In this document: positions 1,407-8,106 of the stretch, piece after piece
Layout of the letters: every line of letters begins with the position of its first letter
Numbering within the stretch: position 1 is the stretch's first letter
NCBI GenBank assembly: GCA_937863605.1
Contig: CALMGN010000131.1
Location: 1-33,195, forward strand
Source of the DNA: an uncultured Anaerolineaceae bacterium
GTDB taxonomy: Bacteria; Chloroflexota; Anaerolineae; Anaerolineales; Anaerolineaceae
Length of the DNA: 33,195 nucleotides
Reading direction: 5' to 3'
Made by a program: the position numbers and the translations under genes
Notes under the pieces: model-generated
What the model saw: only the letters and a program-made list of their open reading frames with translations
Databases searched by the model: none
Told to the model about the DNA's origin: nothing

Positions 1407-4025
1407 TTACGGATTGATTGCGGTGGACATCAAATCACGGCCGATTTGCGTGGCCAGATTGGGATTATCCTCTTCGAGCACCAAAGCCAGCACCAATGGA
1501 GAGCCAGGCCAGGATTCGATGGTGGCGCTAATATACCAGGTAAGAGATTGTCCATCATCCGTCTGGGCTTGCCCAATGGCGTCCCAAACGGGAAGACCGG
1601 AGGTGTAATCTGTCTTCAAACCTTCTGGGCGGGAGTAAGTCGCATCTACTATGGTTGTTGTGCCGGTTGGCAGCACGATCCAGCCCTGGTGCGGGGTACG
1701 GACTGCAGTTGCCAGGCGTGGTGCCGGCCGGACACCCGAATTGCTGAGTTGAGCGGCTGCCAGGGCCATCTGCAGTGGCGTTACCTTTAATCCTGATTGG
1801 CCGATAGAGGCCAATACGATATCGGTAACAGGCTGGTCGAGGGATGGCGCGATGGTGGGGAGGTCAAATTCAGGAGCGCTGAAGAAGCCGTAATCCTGAA
1901 ACAACTCCCGCATCTGGCTGTTCGACAGACGTTCTCCCAGTTCCACCAACGCACCTGGACAACCGGCGGATACCACGGTTTCCCAGGTGAGCGGGATGGC
2001 TGGGGCACGGGCGCAGGTGAGGATTTTCCCGTCCAATGAATAATTTAACTGTCCGGGATCGGCGTCAAGCGTTGGCTTTACGCGGGCATATAGAAAAGGT
2101 CCAAGAATACTGCCGGGAGGGTAAGCGCCCTGGGTGACCCGGTTTAATAATGGCGCATCGGGATCCGTCCGCCACTGCTCCCATTTTTCATCCATCAGGT
2201 TGGGATCAAACGATGGCTGCGAGGCAATTGCGATGACCTCGCCAGTTTGCATGTTGAGGATCACTGCTGCCCCGATGTGATCGACAAGGACAGCATCGAC
2301 ACTGGTTTGCAGGTCAAGATCGATCGAAATACGCACATCCAAACCGGGTGGTGGTTGACCGTAAATCCACTCGGCCAGCCAGATCGTGGAAGAAGAATTC
2401 CCTTGCAAGCCAGAAAGATATCCATCCAGGCTAGCTTCCAGACCACCTTTGCCAAAAACCGGATCCGAGTAGCCGATGGTTGTTCCCAGTGCGGGATACA
2501 ATAAACTGCGTGTGTAGCTGCCAGATTGACCGGTGGTAATGGATATAGGTTCATTAGAGCGGTCTAGTAGTGAACCGCGCGGGACATAGCGCGAATGGAC
2601 TGCCCATCGCAAATTATCAGTGCGGAATTGCAGGTCGTCGGAACGCACCACAGCCCACCAGCCAGCGGTCAAACCAAGCGCCATCAACGCCCCGGCGATC
2701 CCTGCACCGGTCACCAGGTAAGGCCGCAGCCGGGGCAACTCAGGTGAAGCTGTCTCTTCGTTGCTGCTGATGACCAACAGCAATCCAAGAGCGGTAAAGG
2801 TGGACAGCAGCGATGATCCTCCGTAAGAAACGAACGGCAAGGTTACCCCGGTCAGGGGCAGCATGCGCAGGTTTCCGCCAATAATCAAAATTGACTGAAT
2901 ACCGAAATAGCAGCCCAGGCCGGCAGCCAGGAAGCGGTGAAAATTATTGGCTGCCCGCATGGCGATGTTGAAGGTGCGAAATACGAACAAACCCACCAGC
3001 AGCAGGATTCCGACCAGCCCGATCAGGCCTGATTCTTCCGATATAGATGCAGCGATGAAATCGGATTGGGAGACTGGAACCAACCCCGGGCTGCCCAACC
3101 CCGGACCGGTGCCGAAAATGCGTCCGGTGGCGACTGCCAGGAACGACTGAATCAATTGATAGGAATTTCCCCCCGGGTCAAGCCAGGGATTCAACCAGGC
3201 ATCCACCCGGATGCGGATCACCGAAAAGGTGGAATAGCCCGCTATCCCGGCTGCCAGCAGAAGCCCAAGGCTGATGGCCAATATTCGCCGGCGGGATGAG
3301 GCCAGGTAAACAACGATCGTGTAAATGGCGATGATCAGCGTGGCAGTTCCCAGGTCGCGCTGGGCAACCAGCATGGCGGTTGCGGCCCCGGCCAGGATCA
3401 GGGTTGGGGCCAGCAGTTGCGGCAGGCTGAGTGTTATGTACACCTGACCGGCCAAATAAGCTGCCAGGTAGATAACCAGCAGCAGTTTCAGCGGTTCTGA
3501 CGGCTGAAAGTACTGCCCACAGCATCCCAGCCACAGCCGAGGGCCGTCTCCGCCAGGGTAAGTGCCGAAGAAGAAGGTTAGTGCTGTCAGACCCAGGCCG
3601 CCGGACAGCCAGATATATTTGTAACGCCGCAGAAGCTCGATCCAACCTGGGAACCTGAGCAGCAGGTAAATGACCGCCAGGCCAAGAATCATCCAAATGG
3701 TCTGCCGCATGCCAAAGGTATTATCCAGCCGCCAAATGGTAAGCAATCCCCAACCGCTCAGCAGGCTGGCAATAGGCAGCAAATAGGGATCGTGGTCAGG
3801 CAATCGGCGGTTAAGCTGCTGGTAAAGGAGCGAAAAACCTGCAAGCCAGCCAAAATAACCCATCCAATGCTGCCAACGAAAATCTGCTGCCCAGGAATGT
3901 ACCCGGACTGCCGGAGAAAGGGTCAGCGCTACCGAATACAGGAACAGGAAGATTCCCGCCAGGAACATCAACCGGCGTTGGATGGAATCTCGCGCTGAAC
4001 TGGAGGGGGGAAAAAGGAAGCTCAC
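1407..4025 (-). CDS. FtsW/RodA-type SEDS protein fused to a class B PBP-like module with degenerate transpeptidase motifs
   Basis: 872 aa. N-terminal half is polytopic with SEDS motifs (GDGPRLWLG, FGTGPGLGSPGLVPVSQSDFIAASISEESGLIG, LPFVSYGGSSLLSTF). C-terminal half starts with the bPBP box VPRGSLLDRSNEPIS, followed by YPPGSILGPF, VSAGCPGALVELG and VWDAIGQAQ. Confidence 0.92.
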   Translation of the reverse strand: MSFLFPPSSSARDSIQRRLMFLAGIFLFLYSVALTLSPAVRVHSWAADFRWQHWMGYFGWLAGFSLLYQQLNRRLPDHDPYLLPIASLLSGWGLLTIWRLDNTFGMRQTIWMILGLAVIYLLLRFPGWIELLRRYKYIWLSGGLGLTALTFFFGTYPGGDGPRLWLGCCGQYFQPSEPLKLLLVIYLAAYLAGQVYITLSLPQLLAPTLILAGAATAMLVAQRDLGTATLIIAIYTIVVYLASSRRRILAISLGLLLAAGIAGYSTFSVIRIRVDAWLNPWLDPGGNSYQLIQSFLAVATGRIFGTGPGLGSPGLVPVSQSDFIAASISEESGLIGLVGILLLVGLFVFRTFNIAMRAANNFHRFLAAGLGCYFGIQSILIIGGNLRMLPLTGVTLPFVSYGGSSLLSTFTALGLLLVISSNEETASPELPRLRPYLVTGAGIAGALMALGLTAGWWAVVRSDDLQFRTDNLRWAVHSRYVPRGSLLDRSNEPISITTGQSGSYTRSLLYPALGTTIGYSDPVFGKGGLEASLDGYLSGLQGNSSSTIWLAEWIYGQPPPGLDVRISIDLDLQTSVDAVLVDHIGAAVILNMQTGEVIAIASQPSFDPNLMDEKWEQWRTDPDAPLLNRVTQGAYPPGSILGPFLYARVKPTLDADPGQLNYSLDGKILTCARAPAIPLTWETVVSAGCPGALVELGERLSNSQMRELFQDYGFFSAPEFDLPTIAPSLDQPVTDIVLASIGQSGLKVTPLQMALAAAQLSNSGVRPAPRLATAVRTPHQGWIVLPTGTTTIVDATYSRPEGLKTDYTSGLPVWDAIGQAQTDDGQSLTWYISATIESWPGSPLVLALVLEEDNPNLATQIGRDLMSTAINP

Positions 4026-4897
4026 GAAGGCAAGTATTTCTCCACCAGGATACCCAGTTTTTGGCGGGCTTGTGGGCTGATAAGTGTCCGGTCAGAGATG
4101 ATTGCATCCGCCAGGGCGTGGGTACAGCTGCAGTCCGCGCTCTTTGGAAGCAGTTTGACTAGATTTGAAATGGTCTCGCTGGCTTTCAAGGCGTTTTCGT
4201 TCAGGGTGCGCACCACCATATCAACACTGACCGGGGCTTCGGTCACATGCCAGACGTCGTAATCGGTAATATGTGCCAGAGTTGCGTAACTGAGTTCAGC
4301 TTCGCGGGCTAAAAAGGCTTCCGGGCAAGTGGTCATCCCGATGATGGAGATACCCCAGGCACGGAACAAATTGGACTCGGCGCGGGTTGAGAAGCGCGGT
4401 CCTTCGATAGTGATGAATACCCCGCCTTTGTGCACATTGGCCTGACTCTGGTCAGCGGCGGTTACCAGCATCGCCGATAATTCCTTGCAAAACGGCTCAG
4501 CGACTCCAATATGCGCCACCAGCCCGCCGTCAAAAAACGAGGAGGTGCGCCCGCGGGTGAAATCAACCACCTGATCCGGGACGACGATGTGACCGGGGAT
4601 AAAGTCGTGACGCAGCGAGCCGCAGGCGCTGACCCCGACGACAAATTGGACCCCCAGCGCTTTGAAGGCATATATGTTTGCCCGGTAATTGACCTCGGCC
4701 GGCATCAAGGTATGCCCCAGGCCGTGGCGGGCCAAAAAAGCCACCCGGCGCTCATGCAGGGTGCCGATTACGATGGGAGCGCTGGGTTTACCAAACGGCG
4801 TATCCAGTTCGACCGTTTGAACATCTTCCAACCCAGGGAATTTGTAAAATCCAGAACCGCCGATGATGCCGAGGATGGGTTTTTCTTCCATGATCAT
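4022..4897 (-). CDS. mtnP: S-methyl-5'-thioadenosine phosphorylase (MTAP family)
   Basis: GIIGGSGFYKFPGLEDV, FLARHGLGHTLMPAEVNYRANIYAFKALGV, ACGSLRHDFIPGHIVVPDQVVDFT, TIEGPRFSTRAES, GMTTCPEAFLAREAELSYA. Start may be 4891. Its stop overlaps the start of the SEDS-PBP gene (4 nt). Confidence 0.93.
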   Translation of the reverse strand: MIMEEKPILGIIGGSGFYKFPGLEDVQTVELDTPFGKPSAPIVIGTLHERRVAFLARHGLGHTLMPAEVNYRANIYAFKALGVQFVVGVSACGSLRHDFIPGHIVVPDQVVDFTRGRTSSFFDGGLVAHIGVAEPFCKELSAMLVTAADQSQANVHKGGVFITIEGPRFSTRAESNLFRAWGISIIGMTTCPEAFLAREAELSYATLAHITDYDVWHVTEAPVSVDMVVRTLNENALKASETISNLVKLLPKSADCSCTHALADAIISDRTLISPQARQKLGILVEKYLPS

Positions 4898-4948: not shown

Positions 4949-5380
4949 TTATTCTTTTGGCGCAATCTCTACCCGCATGACAGTTTGTCCAACGCGAATT
5001 TCATCGCCAGAGACCAGTACGGTCATGGTGTTGACGGGTTCTTCGTTGAGAAAGGTACCGTTGGTTGATTTAAGGTCTTCCACCCACCACTGGTTGTGGC
5101 GGTACGCCAGGCGCGCATGGCGGCCTGAGACCGTGTCGTCCAGGATGGGCAGGGTGGTGGTTTGCTCGCGTCCGATGAATATTTCTGATTTTTGAAAGCT
5201 GGCAGGCTCGAACTCGTCCATGCCGATGCGCGTCAGGGTAATGGCGGGCGCCTTTTGGGCGGCCAAAATCAGCGTTTGAACCCGCAGGTCGCGCCAGATG
5301 GTGTATAGCGCCCAGCCTAAAAACGCGTAAAGCGCGATTGCCAGAAAGATGCGAATGATCAGTACAACGATGCCGCTCAT
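4949..5380 (-). CDS. FHA domain protein with N-terminal membrane segment (FhaB-like)
   Basis: N-terminal TM (VVLIIRIFLAIALYAFLGWALY), then FHA signature IFIGREQTTTLPILDDTVSGRHARLAYRHNQWWVEDLKSTNGTFLNEEPV. Confidence 0.88.
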   Translation of the reverse strand: MSGIVVLIIRIFLAIALYAFLGWALYTIWRDLRVQTLILAAQKAPAITLTRIGMDEFEPASFQKSEIFIGREQTTTLPILDDTVSGRHARLAYRHNQWWVEDLKSTNGTFLNEEPVNTMTVLVSGDEIRVGQTVMRVEIAPKE

Positions 5381-5394
5381 GGATTATTCCCGCT

Positions 5395-6162
5395 TCAGGA
5401 TGGAATTTGGGCCGGGGAGGTTCCGGTGGTGCGCGGCCTGGAGGGTGTTTCCTCGCCAAAAATGAGGTTGACCCCCGCCAGGGAAATCACATCCCCCGGG
5501 CGCAGGCTGTGGGTGGTAACACGGCGGCTGTTGACGTAGGTGCCGCCGGTGGAATTCAAGTCGAAAAGGACGCACTCGCCGTGAATGATGCGGATCTGGG
5601 CATGATTGCGCGAGATCCGCGGGTCCGGCAGCACCAGGTCGTTATCTTCCCGCCGCCCGATATTGGTCGCCGCCTGGTTGAGGAGGAAAGTTTGACTGTT
5701 TTCCAATATCAAGAACGGGCCAGACCAGGTTTCAGGGTTAATCGTTGTCAGGGGATCGGAGTCGGCAGCCATTACTGCGGTCGAGTTGACATCCACTTCC
5801 TGGTAAATCAGGACAGCCCGTACGTTTTTTGGATCGAGATCAGAATCGGGCATTAAACGGATCTCCGGATCCCGGGCGAAGCTGCGGTTGCTTTCCGCCG
5901 CCATGTCGAGCAGCACCCGGTTCAGCCATTCCACCCAGTCCGGGTGTGATTCCCAGGCTTTGCAGTTTTCCGGGTGCATGAACAGGTTGAAACTATCCGG
6001 CAGTGGTTCAGCTGAGCGGTTATCCAGCGCAAGCTGGGTGCGCAAGGCTGATATCACGTTCGCTGCCAGCCGCGGCTGAGAATTGCGCCAGGGCAGACGG
6101 CTCATACTGTTCTCGATCAAAGCCTGCAGTCGGCTTTCAAGGCGGTCCATTCGCGAGGTCAT
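5395..6162 (-). CDS. DUF3662-type + FHA domain protein (FhaA-like)
   Basis: N-terminal FhaA-like domain (DRLESRLQALIE...SFNLFMHPENCKAWESHPDWVEWLNRVLLDMAAESN) and C-terminal FHA (TNIGRREDNDLVLPDPRISRNHAQIRIIHGECVLFDLNSTGGTYVNSRRV). Real start may be 6150 (MDRLES). Confidence 0.88.
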   Translation of the reverse strand: MTSRMDRLESRLQALIENSMSRLPWRNSQPRLAANVISALRTQLALDNRSAEPLPDSFNLFMHPENCKAWESHPDWVEWLNRVLLDMAAESNRSFARDPEIRLMPDSDLDPKNVRAVLIYQEVDVNSTAVMAADSDPLTTINPETWSGPFLILENSQTFLLNQAATNIGRREDNDLVLPDPRISRNHAQIRIIHGECVLFDLNSTGGTYVNSRRVTTHSLRPGDVISLAGVNLIFGEETPSRPRTTGTSPAQIPS

Positions 6163-6654: not shown

Positions 6655-8106
6655 ATGATCCGGTTGCAGGATATCAAGAAAATCAATGATTACGAGTGGG
6701 AGATCCCGCAGTCCTTTCGCAAGGATATGCGCGTATCCGTCCGACTGTTCGTCACCCGCCGGCTGTTGGAAGATGCGCTCGATGACCAATCGTTGGAGCA
6801 AGCCATAAATGCCGCCACACTTCCGGGAGTGATGCAGCCAGTGGTGGTCATGCCTGATATGCATCAGGGGTACGGCTTCCCGATCGGCGGGGTGGCAGCC
6901 ACGCGTCTGACGGACGGCGTGGTTTCACCTGGAGCGATTGGGTATGACATCAACTGCGGCGTGCGCCTACTCGGATCACAAATTGAACTGGAGGCGGTCG
7001 AACATGTATTATCCGATTTGGCAAACGCACTCAACCGGCATTGCCCGAGCGGGGTGGGGGTTGCCGGGAATTATCATCTCACTGAAGCTGAATTGGATCA
7101 GGTTTGCCGGCTCGGCGCGCGCTGGGCGTTGAAAAAAGGGCTGGCGACCGCGGAGGATTTGCTGCGCACCGAAGAAGGCGGCAGTCTGGATGGCGCTGAC
7201 CCGGCAAAAGTCAGCCCCCAGGCGAAGAAACGCGGGCTGAATCAGCTCGGGACGCTTGGAGCGGGCAACCACTTTATCGAGGTGGATGTCGTTGATCAGG
7301 TGTATGATGCGCAGGCGGCTCAAGCAATGGGCTTGCGGGAAGGCATGTTGGCCTTGCAAATCCACTGCGGCTCGCGCGGATTTGGCCACCAGATCTGCAC
7401 CGACTATGTACAAGACTTGCAAAGCGCAGTTCACCGCTACGGCATAAAATTGCCCGACCGCGAGCTGGTGTGCGCACCCCTGGACAGTCCGGAGGGAAGG
7501 GATTATCTGGCAGCCATGCGCTCAGCGGCCAATTATGCGTTCTGCAACCGCCAATTATTGGCGCATGCCGCGCGCCAGGCCTTTGAAGGAACGCTGGCTG
7601 GTGTGGTTAAGAATTGGCAGCTTTCCCAGGTTTATGATATTGCCCACAACATGGGGAAAATCGAGACCCACGTGGTGGACGGGAAAAAGGTCAAGGTCTG
7701 CGTGCACCGCAAGGGCGCCACGCGGGCTTTTGGCCCCGGCTCACTGGAGCTGCCGGAGGTGTACCGCTCGATCGGTCAGCCAGTGTTAGTGCCAGGTAGC
7801 ATGGGCACCGCTTCATGGGTGTTGGTCGGCACCGCTGAAAGTATGACGCGCTCCTGGGGGTCCAGCTGTCACGGGGCTGGCCGGGTGATGAGTCGCAGCC
7901 AGGCCAAACGCGAGATTCGCGGCGACCGGTTGCGCAGTGAATTGGAAGCGGACGGCATTCACATTCGGGCCGGGTCGCTTCCAGGACTGGCTGAGGAGGC
8001 GCCGCGCGCCTATAAAGATGTCGATGAGGTAGTTGAGACGGTCCATGCGGCCGGAATAGCTCGCAAGGTCGCTCGCCTGCGGCCGGTAATCGTCATCAAG
8101 GGATAA
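6655..8106 (+). CDS. rtcB: RNA-splicing ligase RtcB
   Basis: [113 protein letters not shown]. Confidence 0.97.

Follow-up and report, generated by a model that had tools for sequence, protein, structure and literature searches.

An uncultured Anaerolineaceae bacterium encodes, in a single open reading frame (ORF), a SEDS polymerase of the FtsW/RodA type joined to a class B penicillin-binding protein (bPBP) that has lost its catalytic motifs. The protein is probably a third SEDS polymerase of its genome, one whose pseudo-transpeptidase has been kept as a built-in activator while crosslinking takes place in trans. By current understanding, SEDS polymerases depend on a bPBP for their activation, a role distinct from the crosslinking chemistry of the bPBP itself. 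The same loss of the catalytic site extends across the whole order to which the bacterium belongs; the dead partner thus seems to be retained for another job, which is probably to switch the polymerase on.

The ORF lies on the reverse strand of the window (the whole stretch of 33,195 nucleotides that was analysed) at positions 1407..4025. It starts with GTG at 4025, ends with a stop codon at 1407-1409 and encodes 872 residues with no internal stops. Pfam matches both halves—FTSW_RODA_SPOVE (PF01098) at residues 102-423 (E 1.5e-69) and Transpeptidase (PF00905) at residues 585-777 (E 1.1e-18)—in agreement with the first-pass annotation, which had described one ORF uniting a SEDS domain with a bPBP module. 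The SEDS module (residues 1-425; 2751..4025, reverse strand, as are all features of the fusion) consists of the FTSW_RODA_SPOVE domain and, in the structural model, two extra N-terminal helices. Behind a linker of about nine residues follow the bPBP transmembrane helix, also placed by the model (residues 434-460; 2646..2726), a membrane-proximal domain delimited by alignment and model (residues 461-584; 2274..2645) and the pseudo-transpeptidase domain (residues 585-872; 1410..2273). The bPBP entry box PRGSLLDRSNEP (2547-2582) persists in the membrane-proximal domain, as had been claimed. The N-terminal region of the bPBP half is short and gives no match to the Pfam family PBP_dimer. The AlphaFold2 model of the fusion is confident (pLDDT 88.6, pTM 0.81), and in a PDB fold search entries of Mycobacterium tuberculosis PbpA, which match the PBP half, took ranks 1-6; the nearest solved structure, 3UN7, has a TM-score of 0.75 on the target.

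Of the features of an active D,D-transpeptidase, the fusion has the fold but none of the SxxK, SxN and KTG motifs. Alignments place S639-I-L-G642 at the SxxK position (2100..2111), where the catalytic Lys is lost, and A816-I-G818 at the KTG position (1572..1580), both as originally read. Structure prediction, which had been proposed as a check, yielded a PbpA-like fold in which SILG, at the SxxK position, opens a helix (638-652) and AIG, at the KTG position, belongs to a strand (813-821), both in line with expectation. The SxN motif is also lost, as the annotation had stated, but its site had been misplaced: instead of SAG at 1972-1980, the alignment gives G688-C-P690 at 1956..1964, with Ser and Asn lost and Cys retained. 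There is no sign of a hidden Ser/Lys/KTG triad, a possibility rejected because no Ser or Lys is invariant in the transpeptidase half among 42 homologues. The Cys of GCP (C689) is invariant along with C671 (2013..2015; alignment columns C256 and C238). A role as a substitute nucleophile is disfavoured, because Cys is also the central residue of SxN in many relatives whose motifs are intact (SCN). Because, in addition, cysteines of M. tuberculosis PbpA fall at about the places of C671 and C689 in a profile comparison, the pair probably forms a structural disulfide.

The SEDS half retains its hallmarks, as the annotation had noted. D322 (3060..3062), in QSDFIAASISEESG, aligns with the RodA and FtsW of the same genome as the equivalent of the SEDS catalytic Asp (D262 of E. 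coli RodA). Both S321-D322-F323 and S400-Y-G-G403 are invariant in the alignment of 42 homologues. In RodA, the polymerase is blocked by the substitution D262A (PMC6207328).

Relatives, the class and the phylum were searched, and 125 loci with readable motifs were taken into the counts. Among these, dead bPBPs are fused at 62 loci and separate at 20 (19 lacking all motifs and one retaining only KTG); intact bPBPs are separate at 42 loci and fused at one, so that 63 of the 125 are fusions. In the window's own order all homologues examined are dead; most are fused and some separate. The corresponding clade on the SEDS tree comprises 54 loci, all dead (48 fused, six separate). Assemblies of the same genus carry dead fused homologues at 85-87% identity, and no close homologue with intact motifs was found in this clade. 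The possibility of an assembly error or a local mutation is rejected by the 62 dead fused loci, which come from separate genomes. Two observations from elsewhere in the sample may be recorded here. The only fused live case seen is a SEDS-bPBP fusion of 967 residues in genome G337 (L149:2656-5556), with intact STFK, SSN and KTG. In a pair of sister genomes, the bPBP motifs are intact in G133 (L125), while only KTG is left in G066 (L107), the loss in the latter being either recent or an artefact of assembly.

The six separate dead loci of the own-order clade fall mostly on basal branches of the SEDS tree, which indicates that in the window's lineage the death of the bPBP came before its fusion. 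On the same tree, the death of the bPBP appears as a recurrent event. At least three changes between dead and live and at least eight between fused and separate are required; on the assumption that the loss of three motifs is irreversible, about seven losses are counted by eye, a soft figure given the weak support of many deeper forks and an uncertain root.

Within the genus, dN/dS is 0.06-0.08 for the SEDS module; the helix together with the membrane-proximal part has 0.05-0.09 and the dead transpeptidase 0.07-0.13. These values are rough because several synonymous distances exceed 1. Across the phylum, transpeptidase distances divided by SEDS distances give a ratio of 1.79 for the window's own dead clade and of 1.17 for live relatives, whereas for the membrane-proximal part the two ratios are 1.25 and 1.40, respectively. 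Taken together, the low dN/dS and the faster evolution of the transpeptidase half alone show that the dead domain is under purifying selection, relaxed only in the part that once did the chemistry. Several families are missing a segment of some 48 residues around the SxN region, but structure prediction still yields a fold for the remainder of the trimmed form (pLDDT 85.5). Purifying selection, acceleration confined to the transpeptidase half and trimming in some lineages all fit the reading of the dead partner as an activator.

Alternatively, the third SEDS/bPBP pair might be redundant and in the course of being lost, its locus decaying and for the most part without function. It is indeed missing from several relatives, including G023 (a single-contig genome, 99% complete), and hence dispensable. 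In family f13, 14 of 18 genomes gave no match to it, and in three others (G048, G347 and G346) the protein stops shortly past a single extra helix, which occupies the place of the bPBP helix, and no bPBP was found nearby; in G346 a GyrA-like ORF comes next. SEDS hallmark residues are also lost in three of the four f13 members that are helix-only or cut by a contig end (G346, G347 and the contig-cut G349). With so many genomes lacking a match and the hallmarks so eroded, decay of the whole system is possible and may be under way in f13. As an account of the locus at large, however, decay is quite improbable: dN/dS is low throughout (0.05-0.13), the SEDS residues are invariant, the locus is found in most sampled families of the order and its gene order is conserved. 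As a separate observation, a 765-residue ORF in G023 (L187:1690-3984) looks like a fusion of an FtsW-type SEDS protein with MurG and is followed downstream by a MurC/MurB-like ORF.

Upstream of the fusion, on the same strand, lies a gene for S-methyl-5'-thioadenosine phosphorylase (MTAP; 4022..4897), whose stop codon overlaps the start of the fusion (GTGA). It is preceded by two genes for FHA-domain proteins, one matched by Pfam in an FhaB-like position (4949..5380) and one with an FhaA_N-like N-terminus (5395..6162; 23.8 bits, just under the 25-bit Pfam cut-off). The order FHA-FHA-MTAP-SEDS-bPBP recurs, with variations, across the phylum. Further along the window, on the forward strand (6655-8106), lies a gene for an RtcB-like RNA ligase. 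The protein has 483 residues, yet NCBIfam matches it best to an intein-containing RtcB model 961 positions long.

This neighbourhood recalls an actinobacterial cluster, which in M. tuberculosis has the order fhaA-fhaB-pstP-rodA-pbpA-pknA-pknB. In the window and in many relatives, FHA genes likewise lie upstream of a SEDS gene followed by a bPBP, and the PBP half of the fusion is closest to PbpA by fold (3UN7) and second closest by profile. There are also differences. MTAP stands between the FHA genes and the SEDS gene, at the place of the phosphatase, and no counterpart of PstP or of PknA/PknB was found in the cluster; PbpA is an acylatable enzyme made from a separate gene, whereas here the bPBP is fused and dead. 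The third SEDS protein is best explained as a peptidoglycan polymerase of the FHA-cluster (RodA-PbpA-like) lineage to which its cognate bPBP has become permanently attached.

The FHA genes, present upstream throughout the phylum, are relevant to a second alternative. The dead bPBP might be mainly a binding or sensing module, whose emptied cleft would bind stem peptides or partners without catalysis and relay the status of the wall to the SEDS module or to a circuit of FHA proteins and Ser/Thr kinases. The genome has four Ser/Thr kinases, all on contigs other than that of the window, and the transpeptidase shell is under purifying selection in most members. Nevertheless, the outright deletion of the SxN region in several lineages and the transpeptidase half being the fastest-evolving part argue against a conserved ligand pocket, and this alternative is unlikely.

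The remaining wall synthases of the genome were also surveyed. A RodA gene adjoins an intact PBP2 gene, a further, FtsW-like SEDS protein is encoded on contig C120 and a gene for intact FtsI adjoins a MurF-like ORF. Contig C286 carries an intact bPBP of the MecA_N type, for which no SEDS partner was seen, and contig C289 a class A PBP. The search for separate active bPBPs, advised in the first-pass annotation, has therefore yielded three with intact motifs (PBP2, FtsI and the MecA_N-type protein) besides the class A PBP. The MecA_N-type bPBP is present in 41 of 43 genomes with a dead partner and in 12 of 33 with a live one; the raw Fisher p of 2e-8 reflects just two or three independent contrasts on the tree, and since the co-occurrence is not phylogenetically independent, no link between the two is claimed. 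Contig C33 (L075:963-3845) encodes a class A PBP-like protein of 961 residues, with a partial Transgly match and a Transpeptidase match of 10.6 bits. As its ASGSLQTSFL stretch contains no evident SxxK, it may be a second dead PBP of the genome.

It is also conceivable that the third SEDS protein makes another glycan, or strands meant to stay uncrosslinked, the chemistry of the bPBP having been lost where crosslinking was unwanted. The recurrence of the losses and their subsequent maintenance would suit this, as would the presence of RodA/PBP2 and FtsW/FtsI sets alongside. However, nothing points to a different substrate, the SEDS protein has the usual hallmark residues and no glycan-modifying gene was identified adjoining the fusion, which makes this the least probable of the alternatives.

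The suggestion that the dead bPBP acts as a built-in activator is supported by the clade-wide loss of the motifs, the lack of a triad elsewhere and the separate active bPBPs; polymerase activity and activation are themselves predictions. The SEDS module would polymerise lipid II into glycan strands, held in its active state by the bPBP transmembrane helix and membrane-proximal domain. The dead transpeptidase shell would serve as structure or as a docking surface without crosslinking, and another PBP would crosslink the strands in trans, candidates being the MecA_N-type bPBP and the class A PBP.

Several systems offer parallels. Catalytically inactive PBP2b of Bacillus subtilis and SpoVD of Clostridioides difficile still serve their SEDS partners, and PBP3 can supply transpeptidation (PMC12713402); these, however, are laboratory point mutants and not a fixed natural state. 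The transmembrane helix of PBP2 alone stimulates RodA in vitro (PMC10449877), and the natural helix-only forms of f13 resemble that RodA-helix construct. Engineered RodA-PBP2 fusions share the module order of the natural protein (PMC6207328, PMC10449877) but are man-made and keep an intact transpeptidase unless drug-blocked or truncated. The solved RodA-PBP2 complexes (E. coli, PMC10449877; PDB 6PL5) likewise present a SEDS-bPBP pair, and the PBP half of the fusion matches chain B of 6PL5; they differ in having an intact active site, a larger pedestal domain and natively two chains. PMC10449877 also mentions a natural SEDS-PBP fusion, citing the genome of Rhodococcus sp. RHA1, which likewise has both modules in one ORF, and makes no mention there of lost catalysis.

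Natural SEDS-bPBP fusions and engineered dead bPBPs are already known. Within literature coverage lying mostly outside subscription journals, the searches found no report of a natural, clade-wide and recurrent dead SEDS partner and nothing relevant on SEDS fusions of Chloroflexi. Until now, the demonstration that activation and crosslinking are separable in bPBPs has come mainly from laboratory mutants. In the present case evolution itself has apparently separated the two, and more than once. A broader proposal, put forward tentatively and with less confidence than the reading of the fusion itself, is that there is a class of SEDS polymerases permanently uncoupled from their own crosslinker: in Chloroflexi the bPBP would have died repeatedly, often then become fused, and persisted in the sole role of activator, in some cases approaching a bare transmembrane helix. 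The loci form a graded natural series—intact, dead, dead and fused, trimmed and helix only—and so offer ready-made proteins for asking which part of a bPBP switches a SEDS enzyme on, including, in the fusion, what is predicted to be, and probably is, a beta-lactam-blind polymerase.
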